This document shows, in pieces, positions 3,655 through 24,265 of a stretch of DNA of 29,064 bases. The notes below the pieces were generated by a model that made no database searches, was not told the DNA's origin, and saw only the letters and a list, made by a program, of their open reading frames with translations. Every line of letters begins with the position of its first letter. Position 1 is the first letter of the stretch. A program made the position numbers and the translations under genes. This DNA comes from a virus. Where the stretch lies: positions 1-29,064 of IMG/VR virus record IMGVR_UViG_3300010354_000435; one strand, given 5' to 3'.

Positions 3655-3965
3655 CAGTTCAACCCGATATTCGCGATGGCTTAATTAATCAAGCGCAACA
3701 GCAGCGAATTACTCGTGATACTTTGATCTTGCAAAAAGTTAATCGTGCTCACAGAGAAGCATTTAAACAAAAGTTTCCTGGGCAATTAGAACATGTCATG
3801 AGATTGACTGCTGAAAGACTTCAGGCCATGTTAGTAAACAAGCCCGACAATCTTGCCGATCCCGAAACATGGGTCAGCACCGCAGCAGAAATTCGCGATC
3901 TCAGTGAAGCACTTTATTATTTGGCTTTGATCAGTAAGGATCATCCGGTTGCCAGTGAGGAATAA
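3651..3965 (+). CDS. Small helical protein before the terminase, alternative small-terminase candidate
   Basis: The 104-residue, mostly helical product has a polar N-terminus rich in Gln and Arg and a helical region with KVNRAHREAFKQKFPGQLEH and ETWVSTAAEIRDLSEALYYL. It overlaps the previous gene by four bases and ends two bases before the terminase ATG, so the three are probably translated together. Small terminases are often encoded in this spot and are small helical DNA-binding proteins, but no helix-turn-helix is evident by eye. The gene at 1125 is the other candidate. Confidence 0.65.
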   Translation: MTVQPDIRDGLINQAQQQRITRDTLILQKVNRAHREAFKQKFPGQLEHVMRLTAERLQAMLVNKPDNLADPETWVSTAAEIRDLSEALYYLALISKDHPVASEE

Positions 3966-3967
3966 AC

Positions 3968-5581
3968 ATGCTAGGGCAAGAAACCTTAATGGCTCGCGCT
4001 CTGCGATATGTTTTAGACGAACATAATCTCACAACAGCAGCACTGGTAACAATACCCGGGCCACTGGCCAGTCATCTAGAAGATTTAACTATTGCACTAG
4101 CAGATGACATGCGTTATAACAGTCTAAAATATTTTAGACCGTTTGATCATCAGCGCAGTTTCTTTAGAACAGGTGCAGCAGACCGTCGCGGTATATTGGC
4201 TGCTAACCGAGTTGGTAAAACTACATCAACATGTTATGAAACTGCTATGCACTTAACTGGTCTATATCCAGACTGGTGGGACGGTTACAGATTTGCTAGT
4301 CCTATTACCTGTATGGTTGCTGGTGAAGGTTGGAGTCAAGTAGCATTGGTATTACAAAATGAATTGTTAGGCACACAGGATGTTAAAATTACAGAAAATA
4401 TTGGAACTGGTGCAATACCTCGTGATTGCATTGTTGTTGATACCATGCGTAATGATGGTGCTAACTGTATCGGTGTTGAGATACGCCATAAATCAGGCTC
4501 TAACAGTTATTTGCTGTTTGCCAATTATACGCAAGAGGTCCGGCAACTCCAAGGTTTTAAACTTAATTTGGCTGTGTTTGACGAACAGCCACCGGATGAC
4601 TTTTTCAGTGAAGTGGTTACTAGAACGGCTACTACACAAGGTAAAGTTTTATGTTCGTTTACTCCGCTAAAAGGCCTTAACGGACTTGTCAGCAAATTCT
4701 GGAACAAAGAAGCGGGATACGAATACATTCGCGTGAGTTGGGATGATGTGCCTGAATATGATCCATGGGGACAACCATTTTTGTTGATGGAAACACGCCG
4801 ACAGTTAGAGCGTGATTACTTACCGCATGAGCGTGAGGCTCGTATTGCTGGTAAGCCTGTTATGGGTAAAGGTGCTGTATTTCAATTGGCAAATTGGCCT
4901 ACATATAAACCAGGAGAATATGTTTTTGCCACAATGCCTAATATACAGCGTGTAATTGCTCTAGACCTAGGACTTGTAAATGATAAAACGGTTATTAGTT
5001 TAATGTATTGGGATCCATATGAACGAACAGCATTCTTACACAAACAAATTGTTGTGCAGGGCGTGGAAGAGGCTGTGCCTATACAGTATATTAATCACTT
5101 ACTTCGTCCTGAAGTATTTGGTTGTCCTATTGTTTTGCCTAGCGATGCTAGCACTCCAGGCCGTTATACAATGAGTAGTAATAGTGTAAGAGAACTATTT
5201 GAACAATATGAATTGAATGTCTTACCTGATCCTATTATGAATCCGCCAGATCCTCAAGGACGCAAAACTAATCACAAAGCATACGGTATAAACCAAATGC
5301 GACAAATGTTAGAAGTTGGTAGTTTAATGATAAACGAAAACTGCACACATTTTTTAAATGAAGCACAAAATTATTTCGTAGATGAACAAGGAAGATTTAG
5401 TGATCCTGATGACTGCATTGATAGTGCTCGCTATGCACTATTGGCTTGCCTCCAAGGCCTATGCGAACCATGGGATAATAAAACTCCACGCGAACGAATG
5501 TTGGCACAAAGAGATAGATACATAACACGAGATTATACTAATAAACCAGCATGGAAACAAGCATATGACCCCAGCAATTAA
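3968..5581 (+). CDS. terL: Terminase large subunit (DNA packaging ATPase and nuclease)
   Basis: The 537-residue protein drives ATP-dependent packaging of DNA through the portal and cuts the concatemer. The N-terminal ATPase shows a Walker A-like segment AANRVGKT (residues 78-85), Walker B LAVFDE (201-206) with the catalytic Glu at 206, and a coupling motif CSFTPLKG (229-236). The C-terminal RNase H-like nuclease starts at IALDLGL with Asp 333, has a further conserved Asp in PSDAS, and ends with DCIDSARYA, where the last metal ligand is expected. Length and motif order match full-length terminases. It is followed with a 17-base overlap by a Cys/His mini-protein and then by the portal gene. Confidence 0.95.
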   Translation: MLGQETLMARALRYVLDEHNLTTAALVTIPGPLASHLEDLTIALADDMRYNSLKYFRPFDHQRSFFRTGAADRRGILAANRVGKTTSTCYETAMHLTGLYPDWWDGYRFASPITCMVAGEGWSQVALVLQNELLGTQDVKITENIGTGAIPRDCIVVDTMRNDGANCIGVEIRHKSGSNSYLLFANYTQEVRQLQGFKLNLAVFDEQPPDDFFSEVVTRTATTQGKVLCSFTPLKGLNGLVSKFWNKEAGYEYIRVSWDDVPEYDPWGQPFLLMETRRQLERDYLPHEREARIAGKPVMGKGAVFQLANWPTYKPGEYVFATMPNIQRVIALDLGLVNDKTVISLMYWDPYERTAFLHKQIVVQGVEEAVPIQYINHLLRPEVFGCPIVLPSDASTPGRYTMSSNSVRELFEQYELNVLPDPIMNPPDPQGRKTNHKAYGINQMRQMLEVGSLMINENCTHFLNEAQNYFVDEQGRFSDPDDCIDSARYALLACLQGLCEPWDNKTPRERMLAQRDRYITRDYTNKPAWKQAYDPSN

Positions 5582-5833: not shown

Positions 5834-8119
5834 ATGCTAGATATAAAAAATATACCAGTTCAGGATATCAATACAAACAATAAAGTAAACGCTACTTTTG
5901 TGCGTATGAAGAATCAAATGGATGTTAAAATGGCCAGTTACCTGCGCTATCTTGGCACAAAAAACGCTGTTAACAGAGCCAGCGACTATCATTATTTGTG
6001 TTTGGCAGTTACTGATTCTACTGCTCCTGTAAATGGTATTGATTACATACATCCCAGTGTAAAACCTATTGTAGATTATGCTACAGCGGTTATTGCCAAA
6101 GGACTTATGCCTAATGGCGAAATTAATTTTGAATTTGTGCCGGATGATGAATTAGACGAAGCAGCAGCACGACAGGCTACCAATATGGTCAGCAAAGTTG
6201 TAAATCAAATGAATGATCCACACTTCATTCTAGAGCGTTGGGTTATGGATGCTGCTATGCATAAAAATGGTATGATGATGATCAAACCAGTGCGTGAACA
6301 GATTACTCGTTATGTAGAAACAGAAGGCACATTAGAACAGTTAAAGGCATTTGAATTACAAGCAGCAGAATCAGGCCTGACTACACTACGCCAAAATCGT
6401 CGTCGTGTAAATGTTAACATGCAGGCCGCAGTAGCAGAAATTCAGCAATTGTTGAACCTACAACAACGCGATATGGCCAACAGTATTATTGATGAACAAA
6501 TTGAACGCCTACGCAGCACAGAAGCCATGGAAGAATCCATGGGTATGGAACAACAAGAAATAACCATGGAGGCAGCAGAAGGACAAGAAGAAATTGTAGC
6601 AGAAGCCATTCGTCGCAACACAATCTATCGTGCCAAATACAAAGTAACAGGTTATACTTTAAATGTTAAGTTTCATCCTATTGCACAGCATTATTGGATC
6701 TGTGATCCAACTGTGCCAGAAATGAAAGATCAACCTTTCTGCGGTTACTATGATCCAATGACCATTCAAGAAGCCACAGAACTATATCCAGACATTCAAA
6801 ACCATTTAGAAGAATTTGAACGATTTGCCGAATATAATATGAACGGCGCTTATCAAGCAGGTAGTGTATTAAACAACTTGGCGATTCATGCTCGTGATTC
6901 AGTGCCTGTTATGGGTATTCCTGTTAGCAGCGCGGCATCAGCAGATCCGGACAGTCGTCAAGTCAGTATCGTCACCGTATGGAACAAATATGACATTGAT
7001 GGTGATGGTGAGTTAGAACTTATTGAATTAATTTACAGTGGCAGTTATATTATCAGCGCCCGTGAAGTAGAGTTTATTCCAGTTGCTAACATGTGTCCAA
7101 AACCATTGCCTGGTAACTTCTACGGCATGAGTATCGCTGAATCGGTGATACCGATGCAGGAATACGCTACCAGTGCGGCTCGTGCCGAAATTCAGTTGGG
7201 TCTGTTAACTGCCACTCCCCGTATTGGTGTTAAGCCTGACAAGTTAGATTTTGAAATGTTACAAGATGGTGAAGCCGCTATCTTTATCTTGGACAGCAAA
7301 TTTGACCCGCAAAAAGACATTTACCAAATTCCTCCTCCAAGTGGTAATTTACAGTTCTTAGAGGTAGGTATGAACCGATTGCAACAAGACACCATGGCCA
7401 TGGTAGGCATGACTACACCACAAGATGTATTCAATCCAGAAGTTATGGCAGCAGGTAACAGCGGTGTTAAACTGCAATTAGCCCTAACACCTAATCAAAT
7501 TATTCAAGATAATACTGTGCGTAATGCCGCAGAAGGTCTGCGCGAAGCACTATATTTGATTTGGCGCACCTTGATCCAATACGGTGATGATTACGGTGTT
7601 AAAAAATTGGCTGGTAGTTGTCATCCAGATAAAAAACCTGTGTTCTTAGATTTTGAGCGTTGGGATAACCTAGACATTGCGGATCGCAAGAACATTCAGT
7701 TGGAATTGGCTCTAGGCATGATGAGCGAAGAAAACAGTTTGAACAGATTGCAGATTATTCAAAAGGCACAGACAGGCCTATATCAAACTGTGCAACAGAT
7801 GGTTGGTTCGGGCACACTAACACCTGAAATATATAAGAAGATCAAGAAGCCTTTTGCAGATACATTATATGTGCTGGGTGTCAAAGACTGCGACACATAT
7901 TTGCCTAGTGATGAAGAAGTTATGAAGATGATTCAGCAGTCACAACAGGCAGCAAAGAACAAAGAACCAAGTCCAGAAGATCAACAAAAGATGGCCAGCG
8001 CAGGATTAGATGCTGCCAAGACCAAACAGATTATGGCAGAGATTGAAGGCACTGATCCAGATACACAACTCAATTATATGAGTATTGCCATGGGCAAGGG
8101 TCAGGACTATGGTCATTAA
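5834..8119 (+). CDS. Portal protein, P22-type
   Basis: The 761-residue protein is the probable dodecameric portal, the DNA channel at one capsid vertex. The length fits P22-like, phiEco32-like and N4-like portals. The central region shows the P22-portal pattern: a strand-rich section with an acidic loop DIDGDGELE (residues 387-395), then NFYGMSIAESVIPMQEYATS, the long channel-helix region, and IQYGDDYG near residue 585. A Glu/Gln-rich helical stretch at about residues 170-260 is an internal insertion or wing. The C-terminus (about 700-761) is polar and helical and may project into the capsid as a barrel. The gene has its own late-promoter motif and AAGGG ribosome site. Confidence 0.9.
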   Translation: MLDIKNIPVQDINTNNKVNATFVRMKNQMDVKMASYLRYLGTKNAVNRASDYHYLCLAVTDSTAPVNGIDYIHPSVKPIVDYATAVIAKGLMPNGEINFEFVPDDELDEAAARQATNMVSKVVNQMNDPHFILERWVMDAAMHKNGMMMIKPVREQITRYVETEGTLEQLKAFELQAAESGLTTLRQNRRRVNVNMQAAVAEIQQLLNLQQRDMANSIIDEQIERLRSTEAMEESMGMEQQEITMEAAEGQEEIVAEAIRRNTIYRAKYKVTGYTLNVKFHPIAQHYWICDPTVPEMKDQPFCGYYDPMTIQEATELYPDIQNHLEEFERFAEYNMNGAYQAGSVLNNLAIHARDSVPVMGIPVSSAASADPDSRQVSIVTVWNKYDIDGDGELELIELIYSGSYIISAREVEFIPVANMCPKPLPGNFYGMSIAESVIPMQEYATSAARAEIQLGLLTATPRIGVKPDKLDFEMLQDGEAAIFILDSKFDPQKDIYQIPPPSGNLQFLEVGMNRLQQDTMAMVGMTTPQDVFNPEVMAAGNSGVKLQLALTPNQIIQDNTVRNAAEGLREALYLIWRTLIQYGDDYGVKKLAGSCHPDKKPVFLDFERWDNLDIADRKNIQLELALGMMSEENSLNRLQIIQKAQTGLYQTVQQMVGSGTLTPEIYKKIKKPFADTLYVLGVKDCDTYLPSDEEVMKMIQQSQQAAKNKEPSPEDQQKMASAGLDAAKTKQIMAEIEGTDPDTQLNYMSIAMGKGQDYGH

Positions 8120-9691: not shown

Positions 9692-10864
9692 ATGGCAGAA
9701 ATTACAACCAGTCAAATTGGTAACGGCACAACCGCTTATGGTAGTGACATCGTTGTCAAAGACTTAGACCTAGATGTGTCTAACAGAGTTAAAGATGATA
9801 CACCTGTTCTAAACATGTGTATGAGCAAGAAGCGTAAAGTTAACAGCACTTTACCACTATGGACAGACGATATCTATCGTGCTCCTGCTGTGCAAGCACA
9901 ACTTGAAGGTGCTGCTGTTTCTACTGCTAATGCAGAAAGCAACAGTCGTTACAACTTAGGTAACTACACACAAATTTTCAGCACAACAATCGCTTCAAGC
10001 GGAACTGCTCGTGCTGTTATGCAGGCCGGTGGTGATCCTCAAGCATATCAAGAAGTCAAACAATTGATTGAATTGATGTTTGATGTGGAACTACAACTAG
10101 TTCGTAACGACCAAATCGGCACCAAATATGGCGGACAATCTGGTCTAGCAACACCTGCTCCTAACACAGGTCGTCGTATGGGTAGTTTGGCTGCTTTTGC
10201 AGGCACACAATCATTTAACGGCACAGCCGGTGTTGGTGACATCAACACATACTTAAACAACGAATCAACCGATGTGGCACCTGCTGTTGCTGTAGGTAAC
10301 TTAGTTGTTTATGCTAACGGTAGTGCATTCTACGGCGGAACATTTACTAACCAGTATTTTACTCCTGCTCTATACAAGCAGTTAGTAACAACTGCTGAAA
10401 AGCGTTACAATGCTAAGATTCGCACAATTGTTGCTCCTACTAGCCTAAGAACTAGTATCAGTGATAACATTCCTCAGTCAAGAAGTATCAACCGTGTTGA
10501 CTCAAGTCGTGGTGATACAATTCAAACTTATGAGGGCGATTTTAACTATTCATATGAAATATTTGATAGTTGGATCATGGATCAAGTTAACCCTAACAGC
10601 ATATTCTTCCTAAACGAAGATGTAGTTCAGTGGGGCTCCTTGCGTGACCTAGGTCCTAACAACGAAGTATTCAGCAATGCTGACGCTTCATTGGATCAAT
10701 TCTTGCTCGAAGGCACTTTGATAGTGCGTAATCCAGCAGGCGTTGCTGTATTGAACAACATTAAGGCCAACGATGGAAGCACACCAGTTCCATTAAGCAC
10801 CGCAACTCGCGATGCCAACGAAGTCCAGCGTGTAAACACTGGTCCTGGCGATGTTACTCCTTAA
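9692..10864 (+). CDS. Major capsid protein, SU10/DUF5309-like
   Basis: The 390-residue protein shows features of the SU10-type HK97-fold capsid family (DUF5309). An N-terminal segment VKDLDLDVSNRVKDDTPVLN has the 'DTP' motif at residues 36-38, followed by LPLWTDD around W57 and LEGA at 71-74. A conserved middle ELMFDVELQLVRNDQIGT probably corresponds to the spine helix. The fold and order (portal, small protein, scaffold, capsid) match podoviruses with elongated or isometric SU10-like heads. AAGGA precedes the ATG. A strong terminator 28 bases after the stop separates head from tail transcription. It is probably the most abundant virion protein. Confidence 0.88.
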   Translation: MAEITTSQIGNGTTAYGSDIVVKDLDLDVSNRVKDDTPVLNMCMSKKRKVNSTLPLWTDDIYRAPAVQAQLEGAAVSTANAESNSRYNLGNYTQIFSTTIASSGTARAVMQAGGDPQAYQEVKQLIELMFDVELQLVRNDQIGTKYGGQSGLATPAPNTGRRMGSLAAFAGTQSFNGTAGVGDINTYLNNESTDVAPAVAVGNLVVYANGSAFYGGTFTNQYFTPALYKQLVTTAEKRYNAKIRTIVAPTSLRTSISDNIPQSRSINRVDSSRGDTIQTYEGDFNYSYEIFDSWIMDQVNPNSIFFLNEDVVQWGSLRDLGPNNEVFSNADASLDQFLLEGTLIVRNPAGVAVLNNIKANDGSTPVPLSTATRDANEVQRVNTGPGDVTP

Positions 10865-20966: not shown

Positions 20967-21506
20967 ATGACAAGACCTAAAGGCTATATCACTTGGCAGG
21001 TGCGCGGCTCTATGCAGCCGCCTGCTTATAAAGATCCTAGAATACCAATTGCCAGACACATAGATTGGCACAAGACTTATGCTAAAGAAGTAGAATTTAC
21101 CAAACCTGAACCCGATAATTACAATAGAGCAGTATGCGCTGATCGTAGATTAGAATGCAATTTCATTGAAGATCATGTCTTTTATCATGATTTCTCGTTA
21201 GATCGCAGCGAGAAGTGGTGGACTGTGTATTATGTGCCTGATCACAAGATAAAACAATTTGATGACTGGATTAAACAGCAACAATTTGATTTATTATGGG
21301 TCAGTGCTAGAACTGCCAAAATAAGTGATCGCAAACCTTTGTTGTATGCTAGAAAAAACAGTGACATAACATTAAATGAAAGACTTTACACCATGGGTTA
21401 CTATAAGAAATTACACGATAAGTATTTTGGTCCTGACAACAAGATGTTGTTAGAACGATTGGGTCCGGCTAGAGCCGTGCTCAACGATCTTAGTAAGGGT
21501 TCTTAA
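20967..21506 (+). CDS. Unknown protein closing the tail operon
   Basis: The 179-residue basic, soluble protein is rich in aromatic residues. Its middle (EDHVFYHDFSLDRSEKWWTV, then YYVPDHKIKQFDDWIKQQQF) reads as a small alpha/beta domain. No catalytic motif is recognised. It lies between the lysis candidate and a strong terminator, so it is the last gene of the block. The degenerate late motif at fixed spacing suggests it can also be expressed alone. Confidence 0.65.
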   Translation: MTRPKGYITWQVRGSMQPPAYKDPRIPIARHIDWHKTYAKEVEFTKPEPDNYNRAVCADRRLECNFIEDHVFYHDFSLDRSEKWWTVYYVPDHKIKQFDDWIKQQQFDLLWVSARTAKISDRKPLLYARKNSDITLNERLYTMGYYKKLHDKYFGPDNKMLLERLGPARAVLNDLSKGS

Positions 21507-21553
21507 GCAAGTTACTTTACAAGATCATATTTTAAATATGTTAATATACCTAG

Positions 21554-21582
21554 CCCCGGATGGCAACATTCGGGGTTTTTTT
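21554..21582 (+). terminator. Intrinsic terminator of the tail operon
   Basis: CCCCGGAT at 21554-21561 pairs with ATTCGGGG at 21568-21575 (one G:T wobble) around a six-base loop and is followed by seven T. A new promoter motif begins two bases later. Confidence 0.9.
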
Positions 21583-21583
21583 G

Positions 21584-21591
21584 ACTAAATA
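21584..21591 (+). promoter_or_regulatory. Late promoter motif for a small RNA
   Basis: ACTAAATAT directly follows the tail terminator. No gene starts downstream before the next terminator, so the predicted product (start near 21597) is a short non-coding RNA. Confidence 0.55.
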
Positions 21592-21596
21592 TTTTT

Positions 21597-21672
21597 GCCC
21601 GATTGCTTGGCCGTTTTCGGGTATATCCTCATTGAAACTCCTCAGTGTCAAAAGCACTGAGGTTTTTCTTTT
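21597..21672 (+). ncRNA. Predicted small RNA 1, about 70-75 nt
   Basis: The interval is bounded by a late-promoter motif and an intrinsic terminator and has no start codon with a usable frame. CCCGA at 21598-21602 pairs with TCGGG at 21617-21621 to form a 5' hairpin. A single-stranded segment of about 18 bases (21622-21639) follows, then the terminator hairpin. Hairpin, open linker, Rho-independent terminator is the usual layout of a bacterial regulatory RNA. The open linker is the natural place for target pairing, but no target can be named. Confidence 0.5.
21640..21672 (+). terminator. Intrinsic terminator of small RNA 1
   Basis: CCTCAGTG at 21640-21647 pairs perfectly with CACTGAGG at 21655-21662, followed by TTTTT, C, TTTT. 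Confidence 0.9.
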
Positions 21673-21715
21673 GGTATTAATACGAAAATATTATCTAATA
21701 CCTTTAGAATTTTAT

Positions 21716-21723
21716 ACTAAATA
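21716..21723 (+). promoter_or_regulatory. Late promoter motif for small RNA 2
   Basis: ACTAAATAT upstream of a second structured non-coding interval. The predicted start is near 21729, inside the 5' arm of the closing stem. Confidence 0.55.
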
Positions 21724-21728
21724 TTAGT

Positions 21729-21859
21729 GTCGGTGGGCGTCGTTCTCCTGAGTTGCCAAAAGTGTATTGTATGACGCCATAAAAATCTTGTTCTAAGAAA
21801 TTCCTTTAACGCTAATAAACACCGACACTAAGAGCCCATGCAATGTGGGCTCTTTTTTT
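21729..21859 (+). ncRNA. Predicted structured small RNA 2, about 130 nt
   Basis: A 12-bp perfect inverted repeat, 21724-21735 with 21820-21831 (TTAGTGTCGGTG and its complement), encloses the interval. From the predicted start, at least 7 bp of it (GTCGGTG/CACCGAC) would be in the RNA. Directly stacked on it, GGCGTC at 21736-21741 pairs with GACGCC at 21773-21778. A smaller TCTT/AAGA hairpin lies at 21786-21798, giving a multi-branched fold. A strong terminator follows the closing stem. No open frame of useful length exists. It does not look like a tRNA or any RNA class I recognise. Confidence 0.6.
21831..21859 (+). terminator. Intrinsic terminator of small RNA 2
   Basis: AGAGCCCA at 21831-21838 pairs with TGGGCTCT at 21846-21853 around a seven-base loop, with seven T from 21853 to 21859. 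Its first base adjoins the closing stem of the RNA. Confidence 0.92.
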
Positions 21860-21871
21860 GGTTCTATTTCA

Positions 21872-21879
21872 CCTAAATA
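21872..21879 (+). promoter_or_regulatory. Late promoter motif before the 21.9-24.5 kb block, site 1
   Basis: CCTAAATAT, predicted start near 21885, giving a 45-base leader before the ATG at 21930 with AAGGAG at 21918-21923. Confidence 0.5.
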
Positions 21880-21892
21880 TTTGACTGTATGA

Positions 21893-21900
21893 CATAAATA
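21893..21900 (+). promoter_or_regulatory. Late promoter motif, site 2 (tandem)
   Basis: CATAAATAA lies 21 bases after site 1. Its predicted start near 21906 gives a 24-base leader. It is a weaker match than site 1 because the T after the core is an A. Confidence 0.35.
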
Positions 21901-21929
21901 ATATATAGTTAGCAACTAAGGAGAACAAG

Positions 21930-22358
21930 ATGACCAAACAGATCATTTATTATAGATCTAAAACTAATATCAATACACGCAATCCCTTGTGCGAAATATC
22001 GCCGGCAGATCATAATCATATAATGAAAGTTATGAAATGCTATATGGATTTGGCCCAAGCAGATCCACGCTGGCAGTTTGAAGATTGGTTTATGAAATCA
22101 CATGAACTATTGCCCAAGGAAAAATATAATAATTGGAAAAGAAACAGTCCCAAAAGTTATAGCCAGGGCATCATCAACAAACTCAATCAACGGGGCTGTG
22201 ATCTCAGCCCACAACAATGCCAGGGCATTGAACAACTCAGCAAGTTAATCAGCGAATGGTATAGCCCAGAACTTTGCCCCACTATTGAATTTAAAAACCG
22301 ACTAGAAGAACGCATAGACCGCAGTCGTCCTGCTGGCTATGACAGTTTGTTTAATTGA
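21930..22358 (+). CDS. Unknown 142-residue protein
   Basis: The first gene of the block after the non-coding island has a strong AAGGAG seven bases before its ATG. The soluble, helical product has WQFEDWFMKSHELLPKEKYN and a Cys pair in the C-terminal half (GCDLSPQQCQG). No motif is recognised. It ends 11 bases before the next chosen ATG, whose AAGGA site overlaps its stop. Confidence 0.65.
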   Translation: MTKQIIYYRSKTNINTRNPLCEISPADHNHIMKVMKCYMDLAQADPRWQFEDWFMKSHELLPKEKYNNWKRNSPKSYSQGIINKLNQRGCDLSPQQCQGIEQLSKLISEWYSPELCPTIEFKNRLEERIDRSRPAGYDSLFN

Positions 22359-23382: not shown

Positions 23383-23712
23383 ATGGCACGAGCAATACCT
23401 ACTCAATTTCAGTTCATGAATCAAACATGGACTATCAAACCCGCACAATACCGACAACTAAAAGAAGATATGGGTCTATGTGATCCTATGACCAATACCA
23501 TTACTGTAGATCCCACACTACCACCTGATGTTTTACTACAGACAATATTTCATGAAATCATACACACATGGGAGTTGACACTACAGTTAGACATGCCTGA
23601 ACGCACAGTGGATCTATTGGCCCTGAGTCTAATACATTTTTTCAAAACAAATGCTGATTTTGCACAAGTATTCATAGAAAGAACAGATCATGACGCCGAC
23701 ACCACCGCTTAA
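23383..23712 (+). CDS. Small HExxH metalloprotein, probable zinc peptidase
   Basis: The 109-residue protein carries HEIIH at residues 57-61 within a helix (LLQTIFHEIIHTWELTL), the gluzincin/SprT-like zinc signature with E58 as catalytic base. A following ERTVDLLALSLIHFF helix has a Glu (E73) that may be the third ligand, a pattern frequent in tiny phage proteins of this kind. A short beta hairpin around NTITVDPTLP precedes the helix, as in such minimal peptidases. The substrate is unknown; prohead processing or host-protein attack are possible but unproven. AAGGAG precedes the ATG. The 3' end overlaps the next gene by 23 bases. Confidence 0.7.
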   Translation: MARAIPTQFQFMNQTWTIKPAQYRQLKEDMGLCDPMTNTITVDPTLPPDVLLQTIFHEIIHTWELTLQLDMPERTVDLLALSLIHFFKTNADFAQVFIERTDHDADTTA

Positions 23713-24265
23713 ACCGGGTCGCCGGCCTGGCCTAACTGACACACATCATGTGGGTGCATGGTCATGGAACTCACATCACCTACACAGTAAAATAATAAAA
23801 GGCCCTAAAGATCTTTGCTGGACTTGGCAAGGATCAAAAGGCCCACAGGGTAATTTATTTGGTGCAAGAAAAAATTTACGCCCCCAAATGATACAGGTTA
23901 ATCGTCTGTTGTTAATGGAACAGTTAAATCATCCCATAGACAACATAGCAGTTAAAATGCGCTGTGGAAATAGATACTGTTGTAATCCCAATCATTTTAA
24001 CTACAATCAACCCAATCAAAGGCGACCAGATTATCAGCCAATAGAACTGTTTAGATTGACCATCAGTGAACACCGATTTCAACATCTCAGTGCCGAACAA
24101 CACGCTGATATCAAGGCCATGGCCAAAGAATATGCACACAACAGCGGTATAGATTGGGAATGGGAAAATCGTTGGATGATTATTGCGGCCAGTGACCTAT
24201 TGCTGGCGCAGATCAAATATCCCGATATTATGCCTTTGTTTACAGCACAGACGATCAAGACCTAA
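23690..24265 (+). CDS. Degenerate HNH-like zinc protein
   Basis: The 191-residue protein resembles the phage HNH endonuclease layout 'CWxW...aHr...HxCxNxxCxNPxHL'. Present are CWTW (C43), VNRLLL where the first His is Asn (N71), and MRCGNRYCCNPNHF, where the usual His before the first Cys is Met-Arg. C92, C97 or C98, and H102 are kept. The zinc scaffold therefore looks intact while the catalytic His appears lost, suggesting a DNA-binding relic. The C-terminal half is helical with WEWENRWMIIAASDLLLAQI. The start overlaps the metalloprotein gene by 23 bases. Confidence 0.65.
   Translation: MTPTPPLKPGRRPGLTDTHHVGAWSWNSHHLHSKIIKGPKDLCWTWQGSKGPQGNLFGARKNLRPQMIQVNRLLLMEQLNHPIDNIAVKMRCGNRYCCNPNHFNYNQPNQRRPDYQPIELFRLTISEHRFQHLSAEQHADIKAMAKEYAHNSGIDWEWENRWMIIAASDLLLAQIKYPDIMPLFTAQTIKT

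Follow-up and report, generated by a model that had tools for sequence, protein, structure and literature searches.

A previously undescribed small-RNA gene family of freshwater bacterial viruses is conserved in shape and hardly in sequence

Introduction

Several phages encode small antisense RNAs, such as OOP of lambda and sar of P22, which repress a phage gene and are transcribed from the strand opposite their target. In bacteria, anti-Shine-Dalgarno (SD) small RNAs such as Listeria LhrC and RsaE/RoxS carry UCC-type single-stranded motifs beside hairpins, sometimes in multiple copies, that are aimed at ribosome-binding sites. The C4 RNA of phages P1 and P7 is encoded upstream of its target. 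The pairing of its loops a' and b' with the target extends from the ribosome-binding site, which one segment occludes, to a stretch upstream of it, where the other provides specificity (PMC5320573). Very few small RNAs have been described from virulent phages, and no function has been established for those of T4 and PAK_P3; in PAK_P3, two abundant late RNAs of about 100 nt, sRNA1 and sRNA2, are short and intergenic and have been proposed to act by base pairing (PMC4933390).

Here we analyze cassette B, a locus of the viral contig IMGVR_UViG_3300010354_000435 (IMG/VR), whose 29,064 bases are referred to as the window, together with its relatives in other phages. As in C4 (RF01695), the phage RNAs of one lineage (lineage 1) lie ahead of their predicted target gene, on the strand of that gene, and have loop segments complementary to its ribosome-binding site. 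The RNAs are short and intergenic like those of PAK_P3, although they are known here from sequence alone; the PAK_P3 RNAs come from RNA-seq of an unrelated phage and have no described family or demonstrated target, whereas covariation and target evidence are available for the present family. Unlike OOP and sar, the RNA and its predicted target gene both lie on the + strand, and their complementarity is imperfect and presented by a loop. UCC motifs beside hairpins, sometimes in several copies, recall LhrC and RsaE/RoxS, but in lineage 1 the complementarity singles out the neighbouring gene, and we know of no structure common to those RNAs and the present family.

Results

Genome setting and structure of cassette B

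The window carries genes for a terminase (3968–5581), a portal protein (5834–8119) and a major head protein (9692–10864); two long genes are fibre-like, and a second module is present. The only full-length portal relative in annotated phage genomes belongs to the metagenomic Podoviridae ctfne034 (44%), while terminase relatives at 81–92% identity are common in IMG/VR; among 84,980 genomes of bacteria and archaea, the terminase query found no relative. A 191-aa protein (23690–24265) resembles HNH endonucleases (PHROG 1872 and 6254) and is kept after the RNA module in several relatives. Taken jointly with the rest of the explanation developed below, cassette B is probably the small-RNA gene of a tailed freshwater phage.

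Cassette B is a non-coding segment of the + strand (21717–21860) composed of a TAAATA promoter motif, a 12-bp inverted repeat, an inner stem and a terminator, much as the earlier note had described it. The late-promoter-like motif CTAAATATT (21717–21725) stands at a distance from the closing helix that is constant in relatives, and the transcript is predicted to start about 10 nt past the T of TAAATA, at this helix. The closing helix is folded from the arms TTAGTGTCGGTG (21724–21735) and CACCGACACTAA (21820–21831), a perfect 12-bp inverted repeat with a spacing of exactly 84 nt, and covaries in relatives. The inner helix, formed by GGCGUCGU (21736–21743) and AUGACGCC (21771–21778), had been described as stacked exactly inside the outer one; the two are indeed contiguous on the 5' side, but 41 nt separate the inner helix from the 3' arm. 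The antisense segment GUUCUCCUGAGUUGC (21742–21756), 14 of whose 15 letters are complementary to positions 21912–21926, lies mostly in the apical loop. It is followed by a small hairpin and AUUCCUUUAA (21785–21809), a UCC module that recurs in relatives, and by an intrinsic terminator (21830–21860) made up of positions 21830–21854 and a U-run. GCCA, the loop sequence looked for in the inner hairpin of family members, is present twice in cassette B, yet the hairpin ahead of UUCCUUU does not have it in its loop.

The minimum free energy of cassette B is -45.2 kcal/mol versus -26.4 kcal/mol for shuffled sequences (z = -5.5, with none of 200 shuffles as good). The anti-SD core is largely single-stranded within the apical loop, with an unpaired probability of 0.93–0.99 at 21744 and 21746–21750 and of 0.55 at 21745. 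The locus had been said to match no recognized RNA class, and the region contains no tRNA (ARAGORN) and no Rfam family at gathering score; at E ≤ 10, a scan of 21500–21960 returned sub-threshold noise only. A tRNA or tRNA-like fragment, with no ARAGORN or Rfam tRNA match, and a phi29-type packaging RNA, with no Rfam match and the terminase gene 16 kb away, were both discarded. Among the functions guessed earlier, antisense action is supported by the target-specific complementarity described below, while RNA-polymerase binding and packaging receive no support from the data.

In these phages, TAAATA occurs 3.14 times per kb in sense intergenic DNA, 0.49 in antisense intergenic DNA and 0.28 in sense coding DNA. 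It is thus a strand-specific intergenic motif, also found before structural genes such as that of the portal; its position and its resemblance to the T4 late motif suggest that it is a late promoter.

The RNA family in related phages

RNAs of the same design are found in about 40 podovirus contigs of IMG/VR, in most cases where the tail-fibre module ends. The family is defined by TAAATA about 10 nt ahead of a closing helix of at least 8 pairs, a hairpin followed by UCC, and a terminator thereafter; all members have the promoter motif at this place, and cassette B has all of these features. A search of 1.6 Mb of relatives for TAAATA plus a closing stem, with no other criterion, yielded a set with GCCA and UCCUUU inside the stem. 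Two lineages can be distinguished: lineage 1 comprises the window, L182, L187, L176, L189, L220, L223, L227–L230, L233 and others, and lineage 2 comprises L180, L193, L195, L196, L198, L201 and L234–L290. A scan with the lineage-2 small membrane protein, free of any RNA criterion, gave 61 loci, about 33 of them with the RNA 0–1000 nt downstream. This membrane protein, with a conserved GGTGY, lies directly upstream of lineage-2 RNAs (L196:3733–3924 and L201:5461–5679, alignment A8) and serves as a locus marker.

Almost every letter of the closing helix changes among relatives while its pairing is kept. In alignment A14 (11 members, window left out), double changes are seen in 13 of the 15 pairs, with a covariation score of 0.90 versus 0.27 for shuffles and at most 0.15 for slid partners. 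As A14 was fitted to the structure, an alignment-free arm-swap test was added: over 38 members, own closing arms score 27.6 versus 14.7 for swapped arms, and none of 20,000 permutations was as good. The arm positions were partly picked by best stem, so that the own score is somewhat inflated; the swapped control was scored identically. The compensatory changes that the earlier note had proposed to look for are therefore present on a massive scale, and together with the preserved layout and the strand-specific motif they bear out its idea of a structured RNA with its own promoter and terminator.

MAFFT alone misaligned the helices, and a covariance-model alignment was used instead. Model R2, built with the window excluded and run on it (58 kb), gave its two best matches at cassette B (18.9 bits) and at a second element, cassette A (18.6 bits), with the next match at 13.1 bits; the E-values are weak singly (0.2 and 0.22, respectively). 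On 1.09 Mb of relatives, R2 recovered about 35 expected loci near the top, and nearly all best matches were expected loci. An exact stem-pair pattern had 76 matches in IMG/VR, none of which is a similar cassette, and BLASTN of the locus against phages found nothing. No description of the family was found in the literature, within an incomplete coverage, and no Rfam model matches.

Cassette A (21585–21670, + strand) lies just upstream of cassette B and consists of CTAAATATT, a hairpin GCCCGA/UCGGGU with GGCC in its loop (21597–21622), UAUAUCCUC and a terminator (21640–21662). Counterparts are found in L167–L169, L172, L220, L222 and L223, and L220 has three cassettes. In L223, the 179-aa gene is followed by cassette A, AT-rich operator-like repeats, cassette B, a terminator, the promoter CTAAATATTTGACT and a homologue of the window's 142-aa downstream gene, in the same order as in the window; in L182, the cassette stands immediately ahead of a 39%-identical homologue. 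Synteny links the window to the RNA family independently of sequence. The AT-rich palindrome-like repeats, with a consensus of about ACTAAAGTATTAGA-N-TATTTTAGTATTA, are located at 21677–21716 of the window and at L170:2025–2075, similar ones follow the 179-aa gene in L001, L003, L005–L007, L167 and L169, and they are likely to be operators that lie between the late module and the one after it. Within the window, the cassette A RNA UAUAUCCUCAUUG (21596–21645) has its best start-region match at the terminase gene (3941–3972), with -25.1 kcal/mol versus -17.6 kcal/mol for the next.

Some relatives elaborate on the design. L180, L198, L201 and L246 show a duplicated design: 3' of the first closed domain lies a second one, which has a long helix, for example GCCCGGGUGCUA/UAGCAUCUGGGC, and contains UAUUCCU. 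The L254–L290 subfamily carries two hairpin-UCC modules in one closing helix (CUGA-UUGCAU-UCAG-UUAUCCUA and stem-CGCCA-stem-UCCUUUA).

The usual location after the last tail-module gene, and the overlap of the stop codon by TAAATA in some relatives, could also mean that the element merely ends the tail-module transcript, as a stabilizing 3' hairpin and terminator with no regulatory role. We hold this to be very improbable: several phages have other genes in between, and a terminator needs neither the GCCA loop, nor the UCC motif, nor the target complementarity.

Complementarity to the ribosome-binding site of the next gene

The gene directly downstream of cassette B (21930–22358, + strand) encodes a protein of 142 aa, and homologues follow the RNA in L182 and L223. 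Its ribosome-binding site GCAACUAAGGAGAAC (21912–21926) is the predicted target site, and it is preceded by a sigma-70-like promoter region, TTGACT-17-TATAGT (21881–21909), in an arrangement also seen in L223, with an ATAAATA motif inside (21894–21900). Neither Pfam nor PHROG has a match to the protein. The fold predicted for it (pLDDT 83) has counterparts only among uncharacterized proteins of uncultured phages, and a search of viral contigs with the gene as query found nothing. Neither this complementarity of the apical loop nor cassette A (21586–21670) had been part of the earlier note.

In a first comparison of the window's start regions, the gene directly downstream was the best partner (-22.6 versus -15.8 kcal/mol). 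The duplex between the window RNA and this ribosome-binding site reaches -24.8 kcal/mol and ranks first of 39 both by RNA and by target, and only 1 of 5000 dinucleotide shuffles pairs as well, although genome-wide the target ranks second, not first, by energy of 770 start regions. The antisense lead was obtained from the window itself, so that its test has to come from the remaining phages. In 14–15 lineage-1 phages, own RNA-target pairs are better than swapped ones in energy, matches and longest run (0 of 50,000 permutations each), the longest perfect run being 8.2 nt for own versus 6.05 for swapped pairs (14 phages). With the window left out and one phage per cluster, 2–6 of 50,000 permutations were as good. 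A scan from -45 to +165 around the start codon detected the excess at -15 and -5 (about -4.4 kcal/mol, 0 of 5000), weakly at -25 and at no other position. Perfect runs extend to 12 nt in L006, 11 in L275 and 10 in L176 and L223, and some lineage-1 members, L191 and L004, pair weakly. The targets of the window and of L223 are homologous genes whose sequences differ ahead of the SD; in both phages the RNA fits the target of its own genome. Nested co-folding is unable to represent this loop pairing.

The loop mirrors the ribosome-binding site of the neighbouring gene, so the RNA most likely keeps that gene untranslated: cassette B would be a same-strand antisense RNA that blocks translation of the next gene. 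The complementary element on the same strand, immediately upstream, and the target's own promoter after the RNA would also suit a leader acting in cis. In that case, RNA polymerase reading past the terminator would make one long transcript whose upstream loop covers and silences its own ribosome-binding site, and translation would be left to transcripts started from the 21881–21909 promoter. This reading is unlikely in our judgement, as a strong terminator separates the RNA from the target, each RNA has its own promoter motif, and another good match in L176 is a gene about 1.8 kb away, which can be reached in trans only.

In lineage 2, a neighbouring target was generally not found, with few exceptions such as L196/L280; the candidate targets in the DUF5906 gene family and in a family of about 310-aa genes were not significant, and a both-strand neighbour test over ±2.5 kb for all members gave p of about 0.02 only. 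The scaffold might have another role, as a protein decoy or sponge, or through hairpin-UCCUUU modules that pair as general anti-SD elements with numerous mRNAs of host and phage, the neighbour pairing being secondary in lineage 1. The hairpin-UCC module does recur, sometimes twice, second closed domains exist, lineage-2 members show no clear neighbour target, and the UCC motif pairs better with start regions than with internal coding sequence (mean -6.35 versus -5.06 kcal/mol). General anti-SD pairing nevertheless fails to explain the own-versus-swapped specificity of lineage 1, and the variants UCCGUU and UCCGAU break SD complementarity; we consider such a role quite unlikely. A pure anti-SD or SD-mimic function was rejected: with the short motif, own start regions are no better than those of other genomes, and target-specific antisense was put in its place for this reason. 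Resemblances of the UCC motif to boxA and to 16S helix 45 were dropped because the UCC variants break them.

Discussion

The family, its structure, its position, its promoter motif and terminator, and its target-specific complementarity are established here. The RNAs most likely work like the C4 RNA of P1 and P7 without being members of that family. Two segments may play the parts of those of C4, GUUCUCCU covering the SD and AGUUGC the part upstream. The C4 covariance model (RF01695) has no match at gathering score in the window, nor at E ≤ 10 in 21500–21960, nor at gathering score in L187, L173, L170, L006 and L001. Unlike C4, cassette B has one long hypervariable closing helix, and the phages of the present family are presumably lytic. 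C4 is processed by RNase P from a longer transcript, whereas cassette B has its own promoter motif and terminator, which suggests that it is not excised by RNase P.

In the mechanism that we propose, the RNA, about 130 nt long, would run from the closing helix, directly after a probably late phage promoter of the TAAATA type, to the terminator. Together, the closing helix and the inner one would act as a rigid frame that presents the antisense segment in the apical loop, and this loop would pair with the ribosome-binding site on the mRNA of the same-strand gene directly downstream. Ribosome entry would thus be barred, and an early or middle protein limited once the promoter is active. The frame would be kept as a structure, its letters and the antisense segment varying with the target. 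The target genes mostly have TAAATA upstream too, so that RNA and target may be made simultaneously and a late shut-off is one reading only; the RNA may act both as a late switch and as a dosage brake. We judge this proposal as a whole, a small-RNA gene whose loop is antisense to the downstream ribosome-binding site and represses it, to be likely, with transcription, timing, binding and repression inferred.

More tentatively, and somewhat short of an even chance, such RNAs could be widespread re-targetable riboregulators of freshwater phages, with one to three cassettes per phage, each combining a hypervariable paired frame, a dedicated promoter and an exchangeable loop that tracks the adjacent gene; cassette A would perhaps act against the terminase gene and the lineage-2 copies against replication or host genes.

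The present RNA family brings together about 40 relatives; its covariation is strong, its promoter motif and terminator are defined, and for no fewer than 14 phages a target is predicted that can be tested. As an antisense scaffold found in nature, it combines a frame conserved by shape only with a seed that co-evolves with the neighbouring ribosome-binding site.
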